DNA from: Saururus chinensis
Lineage: Eukaryota > Streptophyta > Magnoliopsida > Piperales > Saururaceae
Direction: 5' to 3'
DNA length: 64,000 nt
Assembly (NCBI GenBank): GCA_035235625.1
Contig: CP141140.1
Location: 58,795,152-58,859,151, forward strand
Both the position numbers and the translations under genes were made by a program. Positions within the stretch are counted from its first letter, which is position 1, and each line of letters begins with the position of its first letter. Below the pieces are notes generated by a model that was not told the origin of the DNA, searched no databases, and saw only the letters and a list, made by a program, of their open reading frames with translations. Shown in pieces: positions 16,627-64,000 of the stretch.

Positions 16627-21211
<4,585 letters not shown>

Positions 21212-25949: not shown

Positions 25950-26317
25950 AGTCGCCAATATATACCAATACAATACGTCCATACCGGAGGGGCAGAGACA
26001 GAGGGAGGGACGGACGGACGGACGTAGGACGGTAGGAGGGGTCGTCTTATGAGGGTCACGTCCCGCCGGGGGCCACCACGTGAGTCTCGCAAGCCTTCAC
26101 TCCCCTTCTCCCATTCCACCCTTTTTACGTCCCATCCCCACTTTCTCCCCGCTCTCTCTCTCTTTTGGTCTCTTTGCTGCCGCCTCTTCATTTACCGGAC
26201 AGCAAACAGTGGCACTCCTCTTGAGCTCGCCTGCCAAGGGCAGTTGCATTCGCCTTAATTATGCTCTTCAGTCTTGATCAGCACAAGGAAAGAGGGCTGT
26301 CCGGGAATTAATCGTTT
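25950..26317 (+). promoter_or_regulatory. Candidate promoter and 5' UTR of the ALOG gene
   Basis: A TATA-like CAATATATACC lies near 25955. It is followed by a GC-rich stretch with repeated GGAC (about 26008-26030) and a pyrimidine-rich leader (CTCTCTCTCTCTTTT near 26153). The ATG of the ALOG gene follows at 26318. The transcript start is not defined by the sequence alone. Confidence 0.4.
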
Positions 26318-27124
26318 ATGGAGTCGGATTCTCCCTCTAGCAGCGGCGGCGCTCCGGAGGCAGTACCAGTAGCGTCGACTTCGCCGCCCGCTGCCGAACC
26401 TGCCTCTGCAACCGGAGTGACAGTGGCTGTAGCGCCACCGCAGCCTTCTCCGTCGCCGCCGGGGACAAGTGATCAAGTGTTGTTGAGTCCGAAGACCGCC
26501 GCCGCCACAGCTTCTACGAGAGCCGAGCCGTCGGCGTCGGCGTCGGCGGGGCCACCTAGCCGTTACGAGTCGCAGAAGAGGAGGGACTGGAATACGTTCC
26601 TGCAGTATCTGAAGAACCACAAGCCGCCGCTGGCGCTGGGGAGGTGCAGCGGCGCCCACGTGATCGAGTTCCTCAAGTACCTGGACCAGTTCGGCAAGAC
26701 CAAGGTCCACATCTCCGGCTGTGACTTCTTCGGCCACCCCTCCCCCCCGGCGCCATGCGCCTGCCCCCTCCGCCAGGCATGGGGCTCCCTGGACGCCCTC
26801 ATCGGCCGCCTCCGTGCCGCCTTCGAGGAGAACGGCGGCCGCCCCGAGTCCAACCCCTTCGGTGCCCGCGCCGTCCGCATCTACCTACGCGAGGTCCGCG
26901 AGTCCCAGGCCAAGGCCCGCGGCATCCCCTACGAGAAAAAGAAGCGCAAGCGCCAGCCTCCACCGCCTACAGCGCCCGCCGCCGGCACGGCCCAGGGGTC
27001 GTCCTCTTCAGCAACTGTGGCAGGGACGAGTAGTAGCGGCGGAGGTGGTCAAGTGGGCGGGCAGTCTTCGTCTTCGCCGGCGGGGGCTGGTTCAGCCACA
27101 GCTGCTGCCAGTTCTTCGGCGTAG
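26318..27124 (+). CDS. ALOG-domain (LSH/G1-like) transcription factor, 268 aa
   Basis: A single-exon gene. Residues about 81-206 form a complete ALOG domain (Arabidopsis LSH1, rice G1): it opens [18 protein letters not shown], carries the zinc-ribbon insert [20 protein letters not shown] (C135, H140, C147, C149), and ends [26 protein letters not shown] at 207-212 is the expected nuclear localisation signal. Family members bind DNA in the nucleus and restrain differentiation at meristem boundaries, in floral organs and in light-dependent growth. The N-terminal 80 residues are rich in Ala, Ser and Pro; the C-terminal 55 are Ser/Gly/Ala-rich; both are low-complexity and poorly conserved in this family. 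The ATG at 26318 is the first in frame and gives a full-length protein. The coding region is a sharp GC-rich island in AT-rich surroundings. The lack of introns is normal for the family. Which paralogue it is cannot be told from here. Confidence 0.96.
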
Positions 27125-35877: not shown

Positions 35878-38329
35878 ATTGAGCGTAAGGGTGCTAACAA
35901 GCCGAATCGAACCGAGTTTTCAGGTTTTTTGACTCGAGCTCGATTTCTGAAAGCTCGGCTTGAGCTCGATCGAATAGCTCGATGCCTGGCTCGAGCTCAG
36001 TTCGGCTAAGAAACTCAAAACTCGACTTCAGCTTGAGCTCAAAAACATACTATAACAACTCGAACCTATGTTCGAATTGAGCTCAAATCCCATTTACAAC
36101 CCAAACTATTTTTTTCTATAAAAATCTATATTAATTTAGAGAATCGCACCAACATTACAAAAAAAAAATATAACAAACAAAATTCTATTCTATTGAAGTT
36201 ATAAATATTATTTCAAAATCTATGGTTAAAATAAGAGTCAATAAATACCCCACAAAAAAAATTCATTTGTCACCAAAAATTTAACTAATGTTATTCTAAT
36301 ATCTCATATAATAAATATAATTATATAAATAATATTAAAAAAATAATAGTTACCAAAATAACATAGAGAGAAAAATATTTACCAATATGATGTTCCTTTT
36401 CGCCAGCGTCTGCGTGATTTTTTTTAATTTTTTTATAATTTCATTCTTATAGAGGAAAAATTCAATATAATGTACTGATTTTGTCATTTAAAAGACAAAA
36501 TCAATATAATGTACTGATTTCATCCTTTTAAAAGATGAAATCAGTGCAATGTATTGATTTCATCATTTAGAATGATGAAATCAATAATGAAATAATTTTG
36601 TCATCTCTTCTCTTTTTCTTCTCTCCTCTCTACTTTTTTTTCATTCACTCTCTCTCTCTCCTCTTTCTCTTCACTCTCTCCTCTCTCTCTCTCTCTCTTC
36701 ACTCTCTCTCTATTCACTCTCTCCTCTCTCTCTTCACACACTCTCTCTCTATTCGCTCTCTCTTCTCTCTTTATTCACTCTCTCTTTCTTTTGGCTATCT
36801 CTCTTCACACACACTCTCTTTTTTTCAGTTATCTCTATTCACATACTCTCTTTCTTTCGGCTATCTCTCTCCTCTCTTTTTTGGCTATCTCTCTTATCTC
36901 TCTCTTCACTCTCTCTGTACACTTTCTCTTCTCTCTGTCCTCTCTTCTTTATTGTTCTCTCTCCCTATCTCTCTCTCATGTGTGTGACGTGAGCCCTAGC
37001 TCTGAGAAGTGGGGAAAAAGTAGAAAGTTTTAATTTTAATTTTTCTTATTTATATATTGTATATTAAAATAAGAAATTTAAAATAAAATATAATGTATTT
37101 GTGAATGACGAGAGGAGAGAGAGAAGAGAAAGAGAATAGAAAGAAAGAAAGAGGAGAGAGAGAGAGAGAGAGAGAGAAAAGAGATAACCAAAAAAGAGAG
37201 GAGAGAGAGAGAATAGAGAAAGTGAATAGAGAGGGGAGAGAGAAGAGAGAGAGGAGAGAGAAGAGAGGATAGAGGAGAGAGAAAAGAGAAAAAATAATTC
37301 ATTATTGATTTTGTCATTTAGAAGGACAAAGTTAGTACATTGTATTAATTTAAGTATACTCATTTTGTCCTTCTAAAGGATAAAATTATGAAAAAAAATA
37401 TAAAAAAAACCACACAGGTGTCAGCGCTTAGTCAGCGAAAAGGAACACCATATTTGTAAATATTTTTTTTTCTCTGTTATTTTGATAGTTATATAAAATT
37501 CCCCATATAATAAGCTACAAAAAACTGAACTAGTCATCAAAGTTATGACAACTCTTATTCACATATTTCATATCTAATTATTCTAGTGACTACAAAAAAG
37601 TTCATGATAAGAGAATTATTTGGACCTCAGCAATAACATATTTCATGGTGTATGGATTGCGTGTAAAAAGAAAAATCAATATAATTGAAATTCAATAGTA
37701 AAATATAGACTTAGTTCACTGGATATATTTATAGGAAAAATTTAGATATAGTTCACTAAATCTCTAATTCTAAACTAATATGATTGTTGAATTAAGAATG
37801 TTTATTTGCAAGTAGAATTCTATATTTATATTTGTTAGGATTAGAATGATTAAAGGTAGTATTTAAATTTTAAATAATATTATATAGATAAATAAGGTAG
37901 AATAGAAATAAAATAATTTATCATACCTACATTCTCAATTTTATTAGTAGTTGAATTTATATTTTTTTGAAATATAATAGTATAATATAGGTATTATATA
38001 TCATATTATATTGTATATCATATACCATATGTTAATGTATATATAGTATATAATTTATAAAATAATATAAAATATTATGGGTACATGAAAGGTAAAAGTT
38101 AAAAAATTTATATAATATGGGTATAATATATAAAAAGTGATATATAACAAATCGAGCCGAGCTTCGAGTCGATTCGAGTTGGCCCATGTTCGAGATCGGA
38201 TCGTTTACTTTTGAGTTCGAACCGAGCTCGAGTCGAGCTCACTTCGAGCCGAACCAATTTGAGTCGAACCGAGCCGAGCCTGTTTAGCTCAACAAGCTAG
38301 CTTGGCTCGTTATCAGCCTTAATTGGGCA
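35878..38329. mobile_element. hAT-like transposon relic, interrupted by a nested element
   Basis: The borders are about 35886 (TAAGGGTGCTAACAAGCC) and 38321 (GGCTCGTTATCAGCCTTA), which are imperfect inverted repeats. The flanking 8-mers ATTGAGCG (35878-35885) and ATTGGGCA (38322-38329) match at 6 of 8 positions, consistent with an old hAT target duplication. Both subterminal regions (35890-36110 and 38150-38310) are dense in GAGCTCG, CGAGCC and CTCGAG words in opposite orientation, the typical layout of transposase-binding repeats. No transposase frame remains. A Mutator-type element is inserted at 36314-37503. Confidence 0.75.
36305..37512. mobile_element. Non-autonomous Mutator-like element nested in the hAT relic
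   Basis: The element (36314-37503, 1,190 bp) is flanked by the exact 9-bp repeat CATATAATA (36305-36313 and 37504-37512). Its terminal inverted repeats (about 36314-36430 and 37395-37503) share GTTCCTTTTCGC and the AAATATTTAC stretch with the large elements at 52-63 kb. Subterminal palindromes of the GATTT(C/T)(G/A)TC... type lie at 36477-36502, 36516-36542, 36556-36582, 37317-37331 (half) and 37361-37387. The core is a long CT-rich arm (about 36600-36985) facing a GA-rich arm (about 37095-37290). It is non-coding; the apparent Ser/Leu-rich frames are repeat artefacts. Confidence 0.88.
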
Positions 38330-40287
38330 GTGTCTGCACTATGCACATAAAAACAACGGTTGTGCTCGTCTCTAGAAGTTTTAAATGTCTGTCATCACAT
38401 CGGTAAGCTTCGTAACTACTAATTTTACTTGAGTTTCCAATTGTTGTGTGTGAGCGTGAAGGCTAGTGGGGGAAGAGTCCGCAATTGGCACATCACGAAG
38501 GATAGAAGACTCTGCGGTAGTGAGAGGTGGTGCGATGACCGGCGTCAGGCTTTGCCGATGCAACAGACTCTTTCGGCGTGACTGACTCATGGCAGAAGAA
38601 GGGTGGGAAGGTGGGTAATAGGGAGCAGAATGTCCCTGAGCTACCAATGGTGCAAACCAAGGGGGTCTATATAGGGATAATAAGGAAAAAAATGGAGAAA
38701 AGAGAAGGATTAGAACATAAAATTAAATAAAAAGCAAATTGATTTCCATTGTCTGTATTAGAATAAGCTCAATAATACAATTTATTGAACAATAAAGTAC
38801 TATTCCTACTAAAATAAGTTAACCAAGACTAATCTTAACCAAATTGGGAAATAGACTAATCTAGAAAGTAAAACAAATATTCTTATTAAGATCCTAGTCT
38901 AATTAGGAATATAACAATCAAATCAAAAAAACTTAAATTTTTGACTAGGGACAAGTAATCTTATAATCACATAGTTTTAAGGTTAGCAATTTGGTATTTC
39001 TTCTTAGTAAGCAAGCAGTGCTTTAATTCTTCCTTGTTTAGTCATTTTTTCCATTATTTTCATATCTTTAACATGCACTAGGTCTCTCCTCTTGACCAAA
39101 AGTTAGTTCTCAAATAGATTCAGCTTGTAGGCCATCAAATTAGTATTTATAATGAAGAAAAGCAACCAAATATGGTGTGTGACAATGCTTGTAACTGTTT
39201 ATTTCATACGATTTTTAATCACATGGGTAAAACTACTTTAATTATCAACGTATTTATGGTTCTACCAATGAAAAAGAAGAACTGTTGATGGCTTCACTAA
39301 TGTGTCGTTATTTGTCTACCAATGAAAGTTTTATATTTAATCAATTTCAACAATTTTAAGATATAAAAATGTCATCTAAAGTTAAGAGTCACATCAACCG
39401 ACCCCCATGTTATAGCATGGATCCGTCCTTGGTTGTGGGGCGTTCGATATGTAGAGTGAGCTTGTCCCAATAAGCACCAATGGGGGCCGATACCCAATGT
39501 GTGTGATATGGGCCAATTACAAATAGAATGAAAGCCCGTGTGGTGCAACATTGGATGGTGCCATGGTGGAGGAAGATTGAGGAGTTAATTTGGGATATTA
39601 CTATAAATAGAAAATATGACCTCTCTCCCCACCTTTTTCTGTAGACGTAAATTTAGGAAAATCAGACGAACTGGGACGTAAGGATTCAATGAAAGGGGGG
39701 TGGACAAGCCGAGTAGGATGAGGAGAGAAATGAGAAAACTAGGAGATCAAGAGGACAAAATGGGAGAAATTGGGACATATTTAGGAAAAGAGGGAGTTGA
39801 AGGAGGAGATGCCAATCTCACAAATCTGATCAATTTACTCATTAATTCCCTGAAAATGAACTTACAGGAGCTTTAATAAGCCTAAATTAACCATAGTAAC
39901 TAATGTCACGCCCTAGAACCTAGCCTGAGCTTGTGGCGAAATGATTGATCAATACAAGAGAACAGACCATCGAAGTATGTTAAGGAATGTTTATCAGAGG
40001 CAATTAATACATTATGAAATATTATTAACTAAGCTTCAACTTAATCGATAAATAATTTTTATTACATCTCCCAAATAACTTAAGTTAACTGCATTCATAA
40101 CGTCTGCAACTAAGCAAGAGATAAGTATCTCCAGACTCCAAAAGATTATCCAAAAAAACTTGTTCCATGCTCACTCAACGCTCCCGTCCATTTAAGCTCC
40201 TTTGTCATTTGAAAACCACATTTTCCTCACTCTAGCTCCAAGGAGTGTTAATGCTATGAGCACTGAGGAATTTAACTCCATCTCACT
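38330..40287. other. No gene seen; LTR-like fragments
   Basis: The minus-strand frame at 38381-38647 has no recognised domain and no supporting structure. At 39905 the string TGTCACGCCCTAGAACC resembles the 5' end of gypsy-type LTRs, but no matching end was found. The rest is AT-rich. Confidence 0.35.
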
Positions 40288-41246
40288 TTGCAATTTTTTG
40301 TATTAATTAATCTCCAAATTATCTGTAATTGTCTTGCCATATCTCTTTACTCTCTTGTGCACCACAATCAATCAATCAGCCTTCATAAAGGGTCATATGA
40401 TAGAAGAGAATATCTATTGGTCCATGAAATGGCAAGGAACATCCATCTTAAAGGAGGGCCAAAGAGATATTCTATTAAGGTTGATCTTAGAAAAGCATAT
40501 GACAAAGTTAGATGGAACTTTGTGGTCCATGTTCTCAAGGAGCTGGGCGCACCGATTAATGGTTCAAACTATGGCTACTTCAAAAATAGTTGTGAGTTGA
40601 AACAGGGATGCCCTTTATTGCCGCTTGTTTTTATTTTGTGCATGGAGGAGTTTTCTTCTCTTATTGATTCTAAATGCGTCGTCTCATCCAACCCCCTGAA
40701 TTTCCAAGTGCCCCATGCATGTCACATCTTCTTTTTGTAGATGAGATGCTACTTCTCTCCCGGGAGTTTAAGGCTGTATTGGTCAACTGTGCTTCTTTTT
40801 TGGGGTTGGAAGCGAATAGTTACAAGAGTTCTATCTTCTTCTCAGGCAGGTCAACCCTTTCGAAGGATATTGGTGCAATTTTTAATTTTCAAGTACTGGG
40901 CTCCATTCCTATCAAGGATCTGAGACTTCCTCTTTCCTCCAAACGTCTATCTAATATGTCGTGCAAGCCTCTTCTTGAATGTACATTACACCATATTGCC
41001 GAGTGGAAGGAAGGCTGGCATTCCATCATATGCGGGTAGGTTTGACCTCATCAAAACTGTGTTCAATGGTCACCAGCCTTTCGACTTGTAGTGAACTGCT
41101 TGATTTTAAACTCCCGAAGAAAGTCTACCAACGTACTGAGTCTTCTTTTCTATGGAAAGCGATTTGTTCCTCTTTTAGTTTCTATATCATTGCATGGAGA
41201 AAGCCATTGAATGTGGATGATTTGGGCATTCGAAGAATTAGTGTTT

Positions 41247-52235: not shown

Positions 52236-52402
52236 ATTAAAATAGAAAAAAATATTTAAATAGTAATTTTAAAAATAATTTAAAAAATAATTACCAAAAT
52301 AACCCATTTTGGGAAATATTTCCTAAAATGGTGTTGAATTTTGCCACGTAGGCACCAGCTAAGCACGGGCGCCTGCGTAGCTTTTTTTAAAATTTTTAAT
52401 TT

Positions 52403-52609
52403 ATTTCATCTTTTGGAAGGACGAAATCATATTTAAGTTAATTTTGTTATTCCAAAGGACGAAATCCTTGTTTCAAACGATTTCGTTATTTGGAAGGACG
52501 AAATCAGCATAAGGTTATTTCGTCATTCGAAATAACAAAAACGTCACATTTCTGTTTTCGGGAGTTGGATGCTTACTAAGTTGATTTTGTCCTTCTAAAG
52601 GACGAAATC
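52403..52609. repeat. Subterminal palindrome array, element A left
   Basis: Five units of a ~27-bp palindrome (GATTTCGTCCTTT then its reverse complement) lie at 52403-52428, 52441-52466, 52479-52505, 52515-52536 (diverged) and 52583-52609. Several are separated by TTTAAGTT or similar spacers. Confidence 0.9.
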
Positions 52610-53452
52610 CACTTCTTTATACCCTGAACGGGAATTCTAGTTCATCTTGCCATTTTGACGTGCTTTCGTCCAATGCCGCTGCCATGCCCTTTCGCCCAAA
52701 TCTGCCGCTGCCATGTTCCGCTCAGAACCGTCTGTCGCAATCCCCTTCACTGAAACGCTCAAATCCACCGTGTTCCCTCACAAGGTGAGAATTTTTATTT
52801 TTTTTGTAACTGTAGGGCTTTGATTCTAACATTTAGGAGGAAATTTGGATGTTTATAGTAGATTTTAATTAAATTATTTGATTATAACATTTAGGAGCTT
52901 TGATTCTAACGTTTAGGAGGAAATTTTGACCGTTAGGTAGATATCCAGGCAATCAGCTAGCTCTTAGGTATGCTGTGATTTTTTCCTGTAATTTGCATGA
53001 CATTCATGGAGTGTCTCCCTCTTGGCGTGATAACCCACTTGAATTTCATTGTTGACTTTTGATCGATCGATAATCAGAGTGAAATGTGTAGTTTAGTATT
53101 TTATTGTTTGGTGTTGCAGCTACTTTTTGGCTGATATTTATAATTGGTGAGTTCTTTTTCTATTGCGCTGCCACCCTTTTGAAAAAGATTATGAATTTTT
53201 CTGTGTCACTTGTAGAATAGAACATTTATGTGCTGACTTTGATGCTTCTTAATCAGTTGTAGTGATTATAGATGTGATATCGTTTTTATTTAAAACTAGA
53301 AAGGATAAAGAAAAATGTTTTGTGGATGTTCTCTTTATTTATTTGCAGCTCGATTAATTTCATGTTTCGTTAAGTAAAGTAGTTATTTTGAGGCAATTGA
53401 TGAATACATTATTTATGTAATTTATTATTTATGAATTAAGTGAATATAGATG

Positions 53453-53791
53453 GTAGAAGCAATGGTTACTTTTGTACTTCACTATGAATGACGCACAGAT
53501 GGATTATTAATTCAGAAACCGTCTACTTATGATGAATTTGAGATGCAAGTGGCTGGCAAAGTTGGGTGGGATCGAAGAAGATGGAAAATTACTATCAAAT
53601 GTTATATTCCGACATATGGATCGAGATCGGCACTAATATGTATAAATGATGATGCATCAATGAGTTTTATGTTTTACCATTCGCCTCACATAGTATGTTT
53701 CGAGTTATTTCTCGAAAAAGAGGCCCGAGTACCTAGTGAAAGGCAAAGTAGTTCACACAGGAGCTCTAACAGGAACCCTCCTATTGATTGG
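53453..53791 (+). pseudogene. MULE transposase N-terminal relic (element A)
   Basis: This matches the first coding exon of the transposase in element B: KPSTYDEFEMQV, KVGWDRRRWKITIKC, ICINDDASMSFMF, FELFLEKEARVPSER. The ATG region survives near 53450, but a TGA near 53489 replaces a Gly codon (GGA in element B), so the frame is broken. The exon then jumps from the HRSS repeat directly to NRNPPIDW. In element B that phrase corresponds to the end of the zinc-knuckle tail about 2.5 kb downstream, so this exon records the deletion junction. Confidence 0.85.
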
Positions 53792-53876
53792 TAAATATAC
53801 AATTAGTCTTTTTTATTTATTCTCTATTTTAGATATCACTATATGTTCTTAACGATCTTTATTCTTTGCAGATCAT

Positions 53877-56130
53877 ATGGATAATATGGAGCCTTCTTAC
53901 GGGCTAGGCCCTATTGATGAGACAGTACTTGTGCAGCAAGAGTCGCATAGGTTGACTTCTATTTGGTAAGGAGAGATGTTATAATTGTTCATGAAATTTG
54001 TTTCATTTTGTTGGTCTAAATATTACGTTGGGTTATAATTTTTAGATTTATTATAGGGCCCCAAGTGCCTTGAGTGCACCGAACATTTTAAATATATATC
54101 TCCGCCATTGGCCCGCAGATGATCATATTCTACCCTATATCGAGCGAACGAGATTTGAACATTTTATTTATCTACAATATGTTCATCTAGATCGACCATT
54201 ATTGACAGCTCTCGTCGAGAGATGGAGGAGGGAAACACAGACGTTTCACTTACCCTATGGGGAGATGTCCATCACTCTCATGGATGTGGCAGTTCTTTTA
54301 GGACTTCGCATCGATGGACAGGCTGTGATGGGCACGACAGGAGGAGGTCATTTGGACTTATTAGTCAAACTCCTTGGCAGAGCTCCTCCTACTATAGTGA
54401 TGTGTGGTAGCCGAGTGAGCCTTCGATGGCTATTATGTGAGTTTCATGATCTCCCAGCTGATTCCATGAAGATAGTTATCGAGCAGCATGCACTGTCGTA
54501 TTTATTACATTTACTTGGGGCTACGATATTTGTGGATAACACTAGTAACCATGTACATGTTGCATATCTCTCCCTCCTCGCGGACTTCAACATGGCGGGC
54601 ACATATGCATGGGGCAGTGCCACTCTTGCATTTTTATACCGAGAGTTAGGGAAAGCATGTCAGGCTATGACCTAAAGGATTACAAGATGTTTAACCCTTC
54701 TTCAGGTAAATGAATTCGTTAAAGTTAATATTTTTTACACAAATAATTACTTCATATATTTTAATAATTTCTATCATATTTTGTGACAACTATGGTCGTG
54801 GGAGCATTTACACGTCGGTCGACCAAGTATTGAGATGAGTCACTTAGTCGAGGGTGCTCCATTAGGAGTGAGGTAAGGTATTTTTATTTTTAACACTTAA
54901 TTATTTTACCATGGTTTTATTTAGAAATGTTGAACTCATGTTTTAAATTCGACTCCTTAAGGTGGAATGTTCGGAAGATAAAAACCGAAAATCCACAAGG
55001 AGTCCTCCGGTTGTATAGAGGAGAGTTAGACCACCAACGGCCTTATCAGGTAATTTTATTTTATTATCAAATTTTATACAATGATTATAAGATATGTAAG
55101 GTAATTTAAATTTAATTATCTTTATCAAATGTGTAGGTTATTTGGAAGTCGTACTTGCCGGAGGTTTTGGTTGTGTTACGTGCTCTCTTTGCCGAGGGTC
55201 AAGATCTGTGGTTCTCACAAACACCACTCATATGTTTTGAGATTATCGAGATGTATGTGCCAGATCATGTAATGCTCCAATTTAACTTGGAACAAGAGGT
55301 CCCACCTCGTACCGTCGAGTTTGTCCATCGCATCACTCGAAAAGGCCGCCATATTACCGACTGGGCTATACATCATGAAACATATATCGCTCGATGGGAT
55401 GATAGGAGAGCCACTATTATAGGAGGGGAGATGGCTACAACATCGCAAGATGTTCGCAACACATATTTGCAATGGTATTTATCGATTATGTGGCGATATA
55501 TTTTACTGCGTGATGATGTAGAGGAGATGACATATCAACCTAGGGGTGCATCTGAGGTAGCTTTGGTAAGTATATCTTTGTTAATTATATCATAATATTT
55601 TCTTATTTCTCATTTATTATTTATCTAATTTTAGTTTATTTTTTATAGTTTCGTTTAGTGCAACATAGGCATGCACATTTGATTGACGCAATTAAGACCT
55701 ATACTTCGGGTGAGGTCTTATTAGCATCATGTCAGTCGATGTTCAGGCAACATGATGATGTCCTTCATAGCTTGCCACTACTTCAGTTGGTGATTACGGA
55801 TGTTCATGGACATTATCCTACCGACGAGGCCGCTCAGACACAGCCAAGGCACGATTCATTCTCTGATATTCCATCTTCATCAGCAACACCTAGCTCTCGT
55901 CCCCGTTCATAATTTTCTGTCACTCCACATGTAGCTTATCCTCAGCCATATCCGATATTATGTTATAGACGACAGTGGCCAGCTCGTGTTGAGTCATCTA
56001 TTACTTATGTAGAGCTAGAGCCAGAGCCGGAGCCGGAGCCGGAGCAGGTGGACCATGAGGAGCAGGAGGAGCTAGTACAACATCGTTGAGGTCGAGGACG
56101 AGGTCTAGGACGTAGGAGTAGAATAGATTA
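53877..56130 (+). pseudogene. Plant mobile domain (PMD) gene, decayed (element A)
   Basis: The start at 53877 gives MDNMEPSYGLGPIDETVL, the usual opening of transposon-borne PMD proteins. Exons: 53877-53965, 54057 to about 54705, pieces near 54785-54873 and 54959-55048, 55137-55565, and from 55649. The PMD core is clear in the second exon: ALVERWRRETQTFHLPYGEM, then ITLMDVAVLLGL, then AWGSATLAFLYRELGKAC. The third exon has PLICFEIIEMYVPDHVMLQF. PMD proteins include Arabidopsis MAIN and MAIL1, which act with a PP7-like phosphatase in silencing and genome stability. The tail has Glu-Pro repeats (near 56018-56045) and an Arg-Gly-rich end. Breaks include TAA at 54673-54675, a lost splice acceptor before 54790, a TAA just after the PRS codons (near 55910; a Ser codon in element B) and TGA near 56087. 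It is not translatable as is. Confidence 0.87.
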
Positions 56131-56499
56131 AGTGTATTAGATTTGTCATATGTTTCATTTGAACTAAACATTTTATTAACATATGATGTTAGATTTATAT
56201 ATTTTATAAACATTTATATCTTATGCTTATTCGTATATTGTGTAGATGATAATTGATGTCGATAAATTTAATGTTATGTGAATAATAGTTAATGTGGATA
56301 AGTTTGATGTTTTGTGGATGTTAATTGAAAATTGATGCGTGGAATGTGTGTGGAATGAATGAACAGGGACAAGTGTGGATAAATTTGATGTTTTGTAGAT
56401 GTTAATTGAAAATGATGCGTGGAATGTGTGTAGAATTAATGAACAGGGTCAGGTGTTAATGTCAGTTGCAAGCTAACTTAAAAAAAAAACATTGAATCA

Positions 56500-56677
56500 G
56501 ATTTTGTCCTTTGGAAGGACGAAATTATAGTTTAAATACTTGAGGCTGAAATGAAGAAACTGGAAGTTCAAGTGCACTCATACTTCTAAAGGACAAAATC
56601 ATATTATCTATAGATTTCATCCTTTGGAAGGATGAAATCAACTTAAAGATGATTTCGCCCTTCCAAAGGACGAAATC
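56500..56677. repeat. Subterminal palindrome array, element A right
   Basis: Full palindrome units lie at 56500-56526, 56613-56639 and 56651-56677, with a half unit at about 56581-56600. The consensus is the same as in the left array and in element B. Confidence 0.9.
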
Positions 56678-57085
56678 AATTAATTTTTTTTTAAAAAAAG
56701 CCACGCAGAGAAAAGTAACACCACTTCGGGAAATATTTCCCAAAGTGGGTTATTTTGGTAATTATTTCTTTTTTAATTATTATTTAAATAATTTTCTCAT
56801 AAAAATACTTGGCCAAAAAAATTATTTTATATTTAGAAATTATAAAGTAAATAGTAAAATTACATTAATATAGAATAAGTACATCCTAACTATGTTGGAT
56901 CCTGTTTACATATCTATCATTTACAAAATAATCTAGAACTTCAAATACAAAAATAATTAAAAATTATGGAAAATTATTTAAATAATAATTAAAAAACTTA
57001 TTTACCACTTTGGGAAGTGGTGTTCCTTTTTGCTACGCAGGCGCCAGCCAAGCAGTTGACACCTGCGTGCCTTTTTTCTATTTAT

Positions 57086-57400
57086 GATTTTGTCCTTTAG
57101 AAGGACGAAATCAGGTTTAAGTTGATTTCATCCTTCTAAAGGACGAAACCGGTTTAACGTCTTAAAAATACTTGACCCGATTTCGTCCTTTAAAAGGACG
57201 AAATCAACTTAAGGCGATTTCGTCCTTTAAATCGCCCTTCTAAAGGACTAAATCGCCATACTGGGCCAATTCAGCCTTCGACTTCTGATTGCCAAAGAAG
57301 ATTTCGTCCTTTTAAAAGACGAAATCAACTTAAGCTGATTTCGTCCTTTAAACGAACAAAATCAACATAAGTTGATTTCGTCCTTTCAAAGGACAAAATC
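57086..57400. repeat. Subterminal palindrome array, element B left (7 units)
   Basis: Units lie at 57086-57112, 57124-57150, 57179-57205, 57216-57254 (one and a half fused units), 57300-57326, 57337-57363 and 57374-57400. Each is GATTTCGTCCTTT plus its near-perfect complement. Close units are separated by about 10 bp such as AACTTAAGGC, itself nearly palindromic (CTTAAG). Confidence 0.95.
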
Positions 57401-58333
57401 ATGATAATTTATCCTTGCCTCCAATCATTTTCTGTCTGCGCTCGATCGCTCCTTCCATACGTTCTCCGGTTCTCGTCATTCGCCCCGCCGCCGTATCCGC
57501 CGGTCGTCTGGTTTGAGCGCCGCCTCACCGCCGTGTCCGCCGATCCCGTACTCTGCCTTAGATTCCGGGTATTTCCCTTGCCCTAATTTTAGTTTAGGAT
57601 TTAGTACATTGGGGTTTTAGTACTTAGGAGAGAAAACCTATAATATTGCTTAGGCTACTTTGCTCTCCTTCTAAAATAGAGAGAAAGAGATAATTGAGAC
57701 AGATCATTAAACATTTTCATTACATACGTCTAATGGGGCTATTTTTTTTTGGTTCAGATGTGGAATGACAGCATTTTAGGCATTAAAAATATGAGCCCTT
57801 AGCTTAATCATTAATGAAGGTAATTTTGGCACAAGAGAGAAGTATTACATAATTCATCAAAAGAACTGTGAGGTCCTACTAATTTTAGAGAACGTAGAGG
57901 TTGGTTTGATGAGCTTTTTGAAAGTTGTCCCATTTGAGAATTATAGCACTTTGAAGTTGCTTAGGAATATTTTCCACTATTAAAATGTTGAAAAAGAAGA
58001 AGAAGAAAATCCCTTTTAAAAACTCATAAAACTATTAATCCCTCCTTGAGAAATATGGAAGTAGATATGACATACAAGTTTCCAACTTCTCACATATGAG
58101 CTTCTGACATATGAGATTGTTAATAATAGTTTAATATTTTTTTTAATAGGGTAGATGTATGAGAATATTTGTTGTCTTCTTTGGATAAGAGTAGAAATAT
58201 GTGAAGAAGTGTATGATTATTGCTCGTTGACAAATGAGGCAATTGCTTAATCTAATTATAGCCTTTTAGTTTTGAGACAATTGCTTAATCTAATATTAAT
58301 TTAATTTATTGTTTATGAATTAAGTGAATAGAG

Positions 58334-61214
58334 ATGGCAGAAGAAATGGTTAGATTTTTACTTAACTATGACGGACGCACAAAAGGATTATTAATTAAGA
58401 AACCGTCTACATATGATGAATTTGAGATGCAAGTAGCAAACAAGGTTGGGTGGGATCAAAGAAGATGGAAAATTACTATAAAATGTAATATTCCATCATA
58501 TAGATTGAGAATGACACTAATATGCATAAATGATGATGCATCAATGGGTTTTATGTTTCACCACTCGCGTGAAGTAATTTTTTTCGAGTTATTTCTCGAA
58601 AAAGAGGCCCAAGTGCCTAGTGAAAGACGAAGTAGTTCACATAGGAGCTCGTATAGGAGCTCTCACAGGAGCTCACACTGGAGCTTGGATAGAAATGTGA
58701 ACAATGAAAGGCATATGCAAATGTCGGTGGATGACGAAGAAGAATGAAATTTATCTATGACAGTAGCTTCAAATGAACGTCATAGGTCGTCTGCCCCTAT
58801 TTACGATGGAAGTGGACCTAATTAGAGGTAAGGTTTATTAAGTTGCAAATACATTTTGAATCTTATAATTATCAATGAAGTATGTTTAGCTAAATTTTGA
58901 ATTTTGTGTGTAATATGGAAGGTCTATAACGCATGCACACGAGCCATTTAGCTTTCAAATGTCTCAAGGTGGTGCATGGTATGAAACTCAAAGTTTGATG
59001 TGCATTCATTACCCCTACACGTATGTTGGTCATACCGATGCTGGACCATACAATCAAAGGTGAAATATATATTCATAAATAAATATAACATTTTTAGGCA
59101 TATGAAATTTAATACATATGCGATGTTTATATGTAGGGGGGCATATGTCCATGACGAAGATATTGATGAAAATGAGGCTAATGAAGGTGAAGATAATATT
59201 GGTGAAGCAAGTGGAGAAGATTCTGACATGAATGAAGAAGGGGTCAAAGGTGAAGAAAGCGCTCAACAGATGGTTGACGGCGAGGGGGATGATGCGGTAG
59301 ACAATGCTATTGCCGCAAATGATATGAATGTGGATGATGAAGAGCCGTCATACTATGAAGTGGAGCCACTCTATGCACACATCACATATGAGGAGATAGA
59401 TGTGGTAGTTAGTTCTGCCATGGATATGGACCAACCAAACGAAGATGATTTATATATTGGTTGCATCTTTGAGAATAAAGAAGCATTTGTTACAGCCTTG
59501 CAGGAGTTTTTCATTCAAAATCATGTCGAATACAAGGTTGTACGAACAAATTTGTCATAGTATACATTGAAGTGCATTGATAGTACTTGCCCTTGGAGAG
59601 TTCATGGCTCAATAAAAAGGAGTGGAGGGTACTTTAAATTGAAGATGTACAAAGGTGACCACACATGTCGAAATGCCCAACTTAGCACATATCATAGGCA
59701 GTGCAGTGCCTCCTTTATTTTGAAGGTCATAATGCCCACTATCCAAGCCGAATTAACTCTCACACTAGGGGATATTATTCAAAGAATGAAGGAGAAGTAT
59801 CATGTTGACATATCTTATAAGAAAGCATTGGCAGCAAGGAATATGACAATCAAGGGTATTTATGGGGATTGGGTGGAATCATATAAATTGTTGCCAATGT
59901 ACTTAAGGGCGATGCAATAAGAGAATCCTAACACCTACTACCGCTTTGAGGATGATGAAGTACATCGTGCAGATGGTGACATTTGTAGGAGATTTACGCA
60001 GTTATTTTGGGCATTTGGGCAGTCTATAGTGGGTTTTCGACATTACATTCCTGTGATTGGTGTTGATGCCACTCACTTGTATGGCAGATATCATGATGTT
60101 CTTATGGCTGCAATAGCTATAGATGGAAACAATGAGTTATTTCCTCTAGCATTTGGGCTTGTCGGGAAGGAAGATGGAGACAATAGGAAATTGTTCTTAA
60201 TGGAACTAAGGGATCGTGTACTGATGGGCATGACGAACATCGTCATTATTTTAGATCGACATAAGGGGCTTCAAAAGGTTGTGCCTGAGGTTCTTCTTGA
60301 GCCTTTGTACCACCATCGTTATTGCATCTGTCACATAAAAGCAAATGCTAAGAAGGAGTTCAAAAATGATACACTGACGGACTTGATTGGGGTAGCAACA
60401 TGTGCACTTACAGTCAAAAAGTTTGATGCTAAAATGGACTTGATTGGAAAAGTTTGATGCTAAAATGGATTTGATTGGTCACGAGAGTCCAAGGGCAAAA
60501 CATCTCCTCTTAGGAGGAGAATTGCATCTTGTACAGTGGTCTCTTGCCCATGGAGGTTTTAGGACATTTGGCATGACGACTATAAATATAGCTGAAAGTT
60601 TAAATAGCGTCTTGAAGGGGGCAGGAGGATTACCCATGCATGCTTTAGTATCAGCTATTTTTTATCAGGTCATAAAATTTTTCGTTAAACAATCTTCTGC
60701 CGCATCTGCCATGGCCACCCCGTATACTCTCAGAGTGGAAGCAATAATGAGAGAACAAACAAGAAAAATTGGGGAGTATATAGTTGATTGGTCAGTACAA
60801 AGTGACGTCAATTCGTGGCCGAAAGGTTATGGTAAATGTGGCGATGCATACTTGTACATGTAACATCTCTCAGGTTTATGGTTATCCTTGCTTGCACCTT
60901 ATCGTCGTGTGGGCAAAGCGGCGGGAGCCGATACAGGCATCACTATTTTACACATCTTCCACTTATAAAAATGTGTACTCGGTAGAATTTTATTCTCCTC
61001 ATGGTCGGGAGTATTGGGAGAGGGATATACCTTTTGTGTTATACCCTCCGATAGCACATAGGCAACCCGGTCGCCCACGGTCTGTTTGCATTAGGAATAC
61101 AATGGACCGTAGAACTGTGGAGAGAGATGGTAGAGAGGATATAAATGCAGGAGGTGTAAACAAAATGGGCACAATAATAGAGTATGTAGAAACCCTCCTG
61201 CTGATTGGTAAACA
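58334..61214 (+). pseudogene. MULE (MuDR-type) transposase, decayed (element B)
   Basis: From the ATG at 58334 come an N-terminal domain (KPSTYDEFEMQV...FELFLEKEAQ) and a serine/arginine repeat. An exon at about 58920-59059 and an acidic stretch (59140-59350) follow. Next are the MuDR DNA-binding-type region (YTLKCIDSTCPWRVHGS, near 59560-59610) and the catalytic domain with GVDATHLYGRY (D at 60065) and ILDRHKGL (D at 60254). The block NIAESLNSVLKGA (near 60590), a SWIM zinc finger CTCNISQVYGYPCLHL (60852-60900) and a frameshifted CCHC knuckle (61150-61200) come last. Breaks: TGA 58745, TAG near 58825, TAG 59558, TAA 59918, a 31-bp tandem duplication (60417-60478) that shifts the frame, and another shift at about 60785-60850. 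The third catalytic acid was not assigned with confidence. The transposase would have cut and pasted elements with these ends. Confidence 0.93.
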
Positions 61215-61305
61215 TATAATCAATCTCTTTATTTATTTTCTATTTTAGGTATGAGCATATGTTCCTAACGATTGATGATATTCTCTTAATTCTCCGCAGA
61301 TCATA

Positions 61306-62712
61306 TGGATCATGCAGAGCCTTCTTACGGGCCAGGCCCGATTGATGATTCTGTACTCGTACAGTAGGAGTCACATAGGTCGACTGCTATTTGGAGAGGA
61401 GGGGTATGATAACTCTTTTTAAAATTTGTTTCATTTTTTTTGGACGATATAGTACGCTGGGTTATAATTTCTAAATTTATTATAGGACCCCAGATGCCTT
61501 GAGTGCACCGAACATTTTACTTATCTCCGCCATTGGCTAGTGGATGATCGTATGCTCCCCTATATTGAGCGAGCGGGATTTGGGCATTTCATTCATGTAC
61601 AGTTCATCCGTATCGATCGGTCTCTATTGATAGCTCTTGTTGAGAGATGGAGGAGGGAGACACAAACATTTCATTTGCCCTATGGAGAGATGTCCATCAC
61701 TCTCACAATAGTACTCATCGGAAGTATTGGTTGCGTTACCTCCTCTATGCACCAACAGTCGAGAGGTGTGACTATCTTGAACTCCACTAATATGTTACAA
61801 GATAGTAGAGATGTATGTGCCGGATTGTGTAATGCTCCAATTTAACATGGAGCAAGGGATCCCACCTTCTACCGTCGAGTTTTTCCATCGCATCACTCGA
61901 CAAGTCCACCATAATACCGACTGGACTTTACATCATGCGTCATATATCGCTTGCTGGGAGGATAAGAGAGCAACTATTATTAGAGGGGAGATGGCTACGA
62001 CATCGTGAGATGTGCGTAGCGCATATATGCAGTGGTATTTATCGATTACATGATGATATATTTTACTGCGCGATAATATAGAGGACATGACATATTAGCC
62101 TAGGGGAGCGCCTGAGGCAGCTTTGGTAAGTATAACTTTGTTCATTAAGGCACATCTTATTTTCTTATTTCTTATTAATTATTTATCTAATTTTTAATTT
62201 ATTTTTTTATAGCTTCGTGTAGTTCGACGTACACATGCACATTTGACAGACGCAATTAACACATACACTTCGGGCGAGGACTTCTTAGCAGCATGTCAGT
62301 TGGTAATTAGGGAGCATGATGATGTCATTCGTAGCTTGCCACTGCTTCAGTCGGTGATTACAGATGTTCATAGAGATTATCCTGTCAACGAGGCTGCTCA
62401 GACACAACCGATGCACTCTTCATTCCCTGATATTCCATCTTCATCAGCAGCACATAGTTCTCCTCCCCGTTCATCATTTCGGTCACTGCACATGTAGTTC
62501 AACCATATCCGATTTTATATTATAGATGACATCGGCCAGCTCGTGTTGAACCATCTAATACTTATGCTAAGCCAGAGCCAGAGCTAGAGATAGAGCTAGA
62601 GCCGGAGCCACAACCAGAGCTAGAACCGGAACATGCAGATCATAAGGAGGAGCTCGTACAACACCATCGAGGCCGAGGTCGAGGCCGAAGTCGAGGACGT
62701 AGGAGATTGTGA
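61306..62712 (+). pseudogene. PMD gene, internally deleted (element B)
   Basis: It opens at about 61306 with MDHAEPSYGPGPIDDSVL, followed at once by a TAG. The next exon resumes with the PMD start (LPYIERAGFGHFIHVQF; ALVERWRRETQTFHLPYGEM) and then, after about 61710, jumps to the equivalent of 55150 in element A. The middle of the domain, about 850 bp in element A, is deleted. Later parts match element A: PDCVMLQFNMEQGIPPSTVE, DAINTYTSGEDFLAACQL, a Glu-Pro-rich stretch (62570-62630), and an Arg-Gly/Arg-Ser tail ending near 62710. Several further stops are present. It lies about 90 bp after the transposase tail, on the same strand. Confidence 0.88.
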
Positions 62713-62942
62713 CATTAGCTTTGTTATATGTTTCTTTTAAACTAAACGTTTTTTCAACTTGTGATGTAATATATTTAATAAACATTTCTATTTTATGTTT
62801 GTTTTTATTCAATGATAATAACTTTAATGTTATCTTTGTTATGCATTGCGTGGAATGAATGAAATTGTGTACGTCTTTAATGAATAAACAGGGACATGTG
62901 TGAAAATTAGTTTAAAATAATTTTTAAAAAATAAAATAATTT

Positions 62943-63150
62943 GATTTCGTCCTTTAGAAGGACAAAATCAGTACATAAGCCACTAATTGGGGATGTAGAT
63001 TCCTAAGTCACATGATTTCGTCCTTTGAAAGGATGAAATCTTCTTTGACACTCAGAAGCTGACGACCGAGTTGGCCAAGTGCGGCAATTTCGTCCTTTAG
63101 AAGGACGAAATCAACTTAAACCTGTTTTTATCCATTTAAAGGACGAAATC
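62943..63150. repeat. Subterminal palindrome array, element B right
   Basis: Units lie at 62943-62969, 63014-63040, about 63086-63112 and a diverged one ending at 63150. They have the same consensus as the left array and sit just inside the right terminal inverted repeat. Confidence 0.92.
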
Positions 63151-63310
63151 ATAAAACAAATTAAATAAAAAAAGCCACACCAGCACCAGCTGCTTGGCTG
63201 GTACCTACGTGGCAAAAATTAACACCACTTTAGGAAATATTTCCCAAAGTAGTCGAAAATGGTAAATAAGTTTTTTTAATTATTATTTAAATAATTTTCC
63301 CTAAAAATTA

Positions 63311-64000
63311 TATTGCGGATTTTATTGAATTTAGTCATAGCTGTTGGGGGATTGCAGTTCATTCCCTATGCACAAGACAAGAGAAGAGATAGGATAATCC
63401 CTTCTTTACAAGAGATAGAGAATAAACCTTTTTTTTTTAGTATGACCCTCTCTTAGCTAATTGCTACTACTCTTTAAATTTTAGGATAGTGTAGTAGTAA
63501 TTAACTAATTTTCAAACCCTTCGATTAAATGGCAAAAAATAAAGACAAATTAGAAGTAGAGAAAGGATGAGAATATTGAAGTTATCAAAAGATGATTACA
63601 AGTATTAAAAAAGAAAGAACACAACAAAAATGAAGAAGATCACATGTAAGAACACATCATTTCTATGTCTTATTATCTTTAAGCTTGAGAATCTTCTTTC
63701 CTTTGTTTTGTACAACTTCTCCTACTTCAAACTCCTTAGGGTTGAATCCTTTAAATTGAAAGGATGCTTTGAAAAAAGAGACCTTTGAAGAACTTGGTGG
63801 ATGAACTTTCTTTTTGAAGTTTTCTTCTCTTTTTGGTGGAATATTTTCCTTTGGGATAAAGACTTTTAGAGTTTATAAAGGCTTCTTAGACTTTACTGTC
63901 AAAAGCCTATCTCTATGAAAAAAATGGGGTATTTATAGTGTTGGAGTTGTGTCATGGGGTAATGTAGTGGGAAAAGTTGGTGAGTTAGTAGGGTACTTTG
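63311..64000. other. No gene seen
   Basis: AT-rich flank of element B up to the window edge. I see no coding frame, repeat or RNA gene. Confidence 0.5.

Follow-up and report, generated by a model that had tools for sequence, protein, structure and literature searches.

Why would a transposon carry a gene for a plant mobile domain (PMD) protein? The question is raised by a 64,000-nucleotide stretch of the Saururus chinensis genome (GCA_035235625.1, contig CP141140.1, positions 58,795,152 to 58,859,151; hereafter the window), in which a preliminary description had recognised two adjacent Mutator-like elements (MULEs), A (52245..56798, + strand) and B (56968..63301, + strand), each with a PMD gene behind the transposase. 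Both are defunct members of a large family of Mutator-like transposons of the terminal inverted repeat (TIR) type that carry two genes. The ratios of nonsynonymous to synonymous substitution rates (dN/dS, or omega) in this family make it very probable that the PMD is selected as a function of the element. The versions of a palindrome repeated near the element ends divide the PMD tree more cleanly than the transposase tree, which suggests where the protein might act.

The genome search covered 11 contigs (516 Mb), which also encode a RuBisCO small subunit of chloroplast type, and the loci considered here are the best matches to A and B sequences, not a random sample. The second PMD exon of A (P2) returned 2030 candidate matches, of which the best 150 were scored; those listed have 76-83% protein identity to the query, A itself excluded, and many of their frames are open. 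The 29 loci that follow A in the list (L010-L038) fall into 22 with a transposase match along the whole 1.5 kb upstream and seven in which this region is deleted or cut. When the C-terminus of the transposase served as the query, the best 20 loci, one of them B, all carried a PMD downstream on the same strand. Four stretches of 9.9 kb (L039-L042) each contain a complete element, about 7 kb long, that has TIRs, the two genes and palindromes at either end. In the relatives, gene 1 consists of an N-terminal exon and a main exon that encodes DBD_Tnp_Mut, the core MULE domain, SWIM and a sub-threshold zinc-knuckle match. In L042, the main transposase exon is open over 684 codons; DBD_Tnp_Mut, MULE (70 bits) and SWIM score above the cut-off and the zinc-knuckle below it. 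L042 also holds the motifs VDATH, SDRHKG and AESLNS, which we take to contain the DDE residues.

TIRs are present in A, B and L039-L042. Target-site duplications (TSDs) were sought in seven elements, L039 not among them: B has 10 bp, L042 9 bp, A 8 of 9 matching positions and L064 8 bp of low complexity, and none was found for L040, L041 and L063. The family thus combines a MULE transposase domain, with what are presumably its DDE residues, with the TIRs and TSDs of 8-11 bp that define TIR MULEs. The 5' end of B gave 2723 candidates, and among the best 40, which were scored, two inverted pairs delimit 1.7-kb copies, L063 and L064, to which no coding part of either A or B matches. Three B-like 5' ends (G000:C5:47317993, 47332407 and 47346807) are evenly spaced by 14.4 kb, perhaps reflecting a tandem duplication that carries an element. 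A search of PDB with P2 gave nothing meaningful (best E 0.41), and no relative was confirmed in one scan of genome contigs and one of viral contigs.

Selection was assessed in an alignment of 54 entries (52 loci, A and B), with 10 same-place loci excluded. Between subfamilies, we compared one representative of each of eight P2 clusters (P2 coverage >85%), six of them for the transposase and four for the fifth PMD exon (P5). Omega ranges over 0.13-0.52 for P2 (28 pairs), with every upper bootstrap limit below 0.9, and over 0.17-0.54 for the transposase (15 pairs). P2 and the transposase, estimated separately as the preliminary description had proposed, both lie below one, which speaks against its alternative of neutrally evolving PMD codons as far as P2 is concerned. 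When per-copy dN/dS values are binned by dS, the sorting itself raises the lowest bins (to as much as 1.45 in P2), and the between-subfamily pairs were relied on instead. The PMD can be regarded as selected equipment, as the preliminary description had inferred, because it accompanies the transposase in all 20 of the best transposase-selected loci and because purifying selection on exon 2 is comparable with that on the transposase.

Several observations weigh against this conclusion. P5 is less constrained, with omega of 0.29-1.07 in six pairs. The full-length copies L039-L042, in which an intact PMD frame was to be looked for, offer none that is intact in every exon (0/4). In the per-copy set (identity at least 80%, at most 4 frameshifting gaps, coverage >75%), P2 is interrupted by stops in 25 of 51 copies and the transposase segment in 32 of 44; the stop-free remainder amounts to 26 and 12 copies, with 13 of 35 for P5. 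Six of the eight P2 representatives used for dN/dS carry stops themselves. The measured omegas therefore contain a share of neutral decay that followed insertion, and active copies are probably under stronger constraint than these values show. Among the 19 transposase-selected loci other than B, P2 is stop-free in nine and the longer transposase segment in three.

Two further arguments of the preliminary description concern the presence of the PMD itself. It had held that a general lack of the PMD in copies with the same termini would speak against an element function; short copies with these termini that match neither gene do occur (L063 and L064). It had also read the retention of the PMD in A after the loss of the transposase as a sign that the gene was no passenger. 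The PMD of A is a pseudogene, so that A alone proves nothing about retention, and the same deletion outcome recurs in 7 of the 29 PMD-selected loci. The exon-2 match is stop-free in six of these seven transposase-deleted loci against 12 of the 22 others, a difference that is not significant (p = 0.20).

Neither element of the window can still produce full proteins. A is a deletion derivative flanked by an imperfect TSD (52236-52244 and 56799-56807, 8/9), and B lies within a perfect 10-bp TSD, TAAAAATTAT (56958-56967 and 63302-63311). Their TIRs belong to one family of inverted repeats, in agreement with the common termini originally noted. In an ungapped repeat comparison (at least 40 nt), A and B have in common, on the + strand, a 300-nt block of 86% identity that includes the N-terminal coding exon and blocks of 80-86% identity in the PMD part. 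No direct repeat was found between about 52610 and 53386; the originally proposed sharing of a first exon thus holds for the N-terminal coding exon and is unconfirmed for an exon upstream of it. In A, this exon (53450..53790, +) contains a TGA (53489-53491), and a deletion of the transposase body joins it to the last bases of the transposase gene. The PMD exons follow on the + strand: P1 (53872..53966, ATG at 53877, borders taken from alignment and the 3' one approximate), P2 (54057..54705, the N-terminal half of PF10536, with a 4-nt insertion near 54092 and a TAA at 54673-54675), P3 and P4 (54792..55049; about 54792-54874 and 54962-55049, placed by eye after the layout of L040 and L042), P5 (55137..55565, the C-terminal half of PF10536) and the last exon P6 (55649..56089), which encodes Pro/Glu repeats followed by an Arg-Gly tail and contains a TAA (55910-55912) and a TGA (56087-56089). 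The insertion and three stops disable the gene.

B retains both genes, each damaged, on the + strand. Its N-terminal transposase exon (58334..58747) loses the frame near 58742. The main transposase exon (59137..61207, 5' border placed by eye) ends in GATTG before the donor GTAAAC and is interrupted by TAG 59558-59560, TAA 59918-59920, a frameshift near 60450 and TAA 60861-60863; its MULE (PF10551, 56 bits) and SWIM domains pass the Pfam cut-off, and DBD_Tnp_Mut falls below it. PMD exon P1 (61300..61396, ATG 61305-61307) contains a TAG (61365-61367), the remains of P2 and P5 (61486..62131) flank a deletion of about 865 bp at 61705-61711 (compared with A 54280-55151), and P6 (62214..62700) encodes Glu/Pro repeats and an Arg-Gly tail. 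The PMD domain (PF10536) is recognised in both elements above the cut-off of 34.9: its two matches in A reach 149 and 67 bits, and the one in B 55 bits. The strand and position of the PMD gene are hence as originally described, although both copies are broken; likewise, A and B are indeed TIR MULEs, but A has no transposase body and the transposase of B is defective. A third, short derivative of about 1.15 kb (36321-37465) belongs to the same terminal and palindrome family; its palindromes, at 36477, 36516 and 36556, are degenerate, and its interior includes a CT-rich stretch.

The boundary between the two genes is conserved. Among 46 distinct transposase-PMD junctions, the donor GT is kept in 44, the acceptor AG in 42 and the PMD ATG in 45, and exon P1 is open in 35. 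If the intron is retained, the transposase frame ends in TGG TAA (40/46); if it is spliced, as we infer, the splice forms a TGA (41/46). Donor, acceptor, splice-formed TGA and ATG are kept together in 39 of the 46, and splicing would leave 4 nt between the transposase stop and the PMD ATG. The transposase frame is closed at the junction in either case, and the single continuous frame of the fusions described by Ikeda et al. 2017 was not found. Preservation of this stop-start junction argues for two cistrons rather than a fusion: gene 2 looks like a separate PMD reading frame that lies on the transposase strand and has a start codon to itself, 4 nt from the transposase stop. With stop and start so close after splicing, reinitiation could yield the PMD protein, or the gene could be transcribed separately. 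A fusion protein was considered for B, where splicing seems to be in frame; this is a product of the shifted frame of B, and the frame used by the other copies (zinc knuckle, NPPVD) stops at the junction.

A 27-bp palindrome is repeated in arrays at both ends of the elements, within the TIRs or next to them, and exists in two dyad-symmetric versions (C/C and G/G). A has five palindromes with at most 4 substitutions at its 5' end (52402..52609) and four at its 3' end (56500..56677); B has six of the GATTTCGTCCTTNNNAAGGACGAAATC type at the 5' end (57086..57400) and four at the 3' end (62943..63150). Half sites (TTTCGTCCTT, at most one mismatch) number 33 in A and B together and five in the remaining 53 kb of the window, and 20 simulated sequences of the composition of the elements contain 0.8 on average and 2 at most. 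The exact palindrome is found at 829 places in the genome and the reversed pattern at none. These places, which include near-copies and are not independent, comprise 448 C/C, 264 G/G and 117 mixed palindromes, against 394 mixed expected if the halves were independent. Of 31 elements examined, 28 have palindromes, and by the count of C against G, with A and T set aside, ten are C-type, 17 G-type and one mixed; the stretches fetched for L045, L046 and L047 contain none. Nineteen elements have palindromes at either end, and in 18 of them the two ends are of one type by the same count. The exception, L056, is mixed: none of its eight palindromes is symmetric at the type position, and its PMD exon 2 is about equally distant from both types.

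The palindrome version appears to follow the two genes unequally. Trees were built for 23 of the 28 elements, leaving out A, L025, L026 and L033, which lack the transposase or a part of it, and the mixed L056. The type changes once on the PMD tree, with support of 100/99.7, and twice on both transposase trees, where no bootstrap tree out of 200 allows a single change. Similarity to the main G group varies along the element. Across the transposase, the C-type group C1 (seven elements) is at 0.89-0.93, the remaining C elements (A, B, L039) are at 0.88-0.93 and the second G group is at 0.90-0.94. In the region that begins with the end of the transposase and takes in the PMD, C1 drops to 0.79-0.87 and the second G group stays at 0.87-0.94. 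Over the N-terminal exon and transposase, five of the seven C1 elements are closer to the main G group than to the other C elements. L006 and L008 combine G palindromes and a PMD of the G group with an N-terminal exon and transposase that are closer to C1 than to the main G group. In exon P2, the C1 elements and L006/L008 are back with their own type, with small margins for C1 (0.013-0.028). The palindrome version thus appears to split the PMD tree cleanly and the transposase tree not, the evidence on the transposase side being modest. The pattern is suggestive of a coupling between PMD and palindrome, such as would be expected of a factor and its motif of the VANC kind.

Our best overall explanation, offered tentatively, is that a selected PMD acts at the subterminal palindromes. 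The PMD protein, or a complex containing it, would recognise the palindromes, probably as a dimer, and would thereby keep the ends and promoter of the element accessible or expressed, like VANC for VANDAL elements. Taken by itself, action of the PMD through the palindromes is possible but doubtful, and a specific action against silencing is a guess that we hold equally unsure. A fully fledged second, independently evolved VANC-like system, in which the PMD reads the palindromes at both ends and protein and motif vary in step from one subfamily to the next as transposases are exchanged, seems rather unlikely. If such a system exists, the PMD gains a concrete DNA target, and the host proteins MAIN and MAIL1 could derive their role from, or compete with, such a transposon PMD factor. 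A number of results speak against the best explanation. The strongly supported transposase branches alone force only one change of type; in the approximately unbiased (AU) test, a single C clade is rejected with the N-terminal exon included (p = 0.030) and not with the core alone (p = 0.24); and across the transposase the C1 elements L001 and L002 are not closer to the main G group. A single old exchange may account for the disagreement of type and transposase. The DOWN sequence CATGCAGTTT, reported for the MORC1 promoter in PMC9899485, has no occurrence in the 64-kb window. Moreover, short copies with neither gene keep their palindromes, which would fit transposition sites as well.

This last observation leads to a different role for the same parts. 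The PMD could be a selected accessory protein of transposition, as MURB is for the insertion of MuDR, and the palindromes could be sites of the transposase or transpososome, nothing here countering silencing. The position of the palindromes in or beside the TIRs at both ends, their survival in 1.7-kb copies that match neither gene and the similar constraint on PMD exon 2 and transposase all agree with such an arrangement, which we consider possible without leaning towards it; a transposase site would be expected to follow the transposase tree, and the palindrome version tracks that of the PMD, although modestly evidenced. The tracking might also be a matter of neighbourhood. Only a few hundred bases separate the PMD from the 3' palindromes, and linkage together with homogenisation of the TIRs, whose longest inverted matches are 69-88% identical in L039-L042, could yield the same pattern from what may have been one event, with the PMD selected for some other role that does not involve palindromes. 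We regard linkage as a serious though uncertain rival: in the 18 non-mixed elements with both arrays, the type of the far-off PMD is also that of the 5' palindromes, which adjoin the transposase, and neutral homogenisation could equally have run the opposite way. That the PMD is a captured passenger of no use to the element, akin to Pack-MULE transduplication, is largely contradicted and very improbable. MULEs are known to capture gene pieces (PMC5418596), and both PMD copies of the window are broken; against this, all 20 best transposase-selected loci carry a PMD, exon 2 has dN/dS well below one between subfamilies and many copies keep open frames, whereas a Pack-MULE fragment would be free of selection and not general in the family.

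Elsewhere in the window, translations judged by eye suggest a GC-rich open frame resembling an ALOG/LSH-type regulator (26312-27124) and one like a remnant of a LINE reverse transcriptase (40276-40740). A long AT-rich microsatellite occupies 18813-19556, its frames encoding nearly only Ile, Tyr, Leu and Asn.

PMDs in MULEs were described by Babu et al. 2006, as cited in PMC5418596. Ikeda et al. 2017 (PMC5418596) report that PMD-C was captured by MULEs twice and is fused to the transposase in grasses and Amborella, and speculate on an anti-silencing role; Dupeyron et al. 2019 (PMC6446971, Table 1) find a PMD in most members of plant MULE groups 42 and 45-50. The function of PMD, in transposons or hosts, is called unknown or largely unclear in PMC8616336 and PMC9899485. 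Like these PMD-carrying groups (PMC6446971, PMC5418596), the Saururus family combines a transposase with SWIM and/or CCHC, a PMD in the same element and a TSD of 9-10 bp, and its TIR lengths fall within the reported range (PMC6446971). The PMD lies inside the same element in the best 20 transposase-selected loci and in L039-L042, as it does in most members of those groups. Unlike the fusion of Ikeda et al. (PMC5418596), the two frames are parted by a conserved stop-start junction, and unlike many entries in the table of Dupeyron et al. (PMC6446971), where the PMD is often antisense, the PMD is in sense. The passages of both papers compared here make no mention of palindrome arrays or of selection on the PMD, and titles and abstract openings, in the literature outside most subscription journals, yielded no report of selection on a MULE PMD, of such arrays or, by a looser search, of such a junction. 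PMDs of Ty3/Gypsy elements and of MAIN/MAIL1 share the Pfam domain PF10536 (PMC5418596, PMC9289625) but belong to a different element class or to host genes.

The closest parallel to the proposed function is VANC, for which binding to arrays of a nine-base motif and demethylation were demonstrated by Hosaka et al. 2017 (PMC5735166). In both systems a MULE carries an extra gene, together with non-coding arrays of a short motif that differ between subfamilies; in VANDALs these family-specific arrays are held to co-evolve with the extra gene (PMC5735166). The extra protein here is a PMD, a distinction made by Pfam match and not by comparison with VANC sequence. The elements have TIRs, unlike VANDALs, which are described as lacking or nearly lacking them (PMC6446971), and no VANC protein in a TIR-less, VANDAL-like element is thus at hand. 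In place of the nine-base motif of VANC (PMC5735166), the ends carry a 27-bp dyad-symmetric palindrome. PMD-carrying MULEs and the anti-silencing idea are already known, and the present family is a new, large member of their number; the new and testable part is the putative coupling to the palindromes, in which our confidence is moderate to low. With its many close copies, selected-looking PMD, two palindrome versions and natural mosaics, the family offers a route to finding out whether its PMD proteins, like VANC, read DNA.

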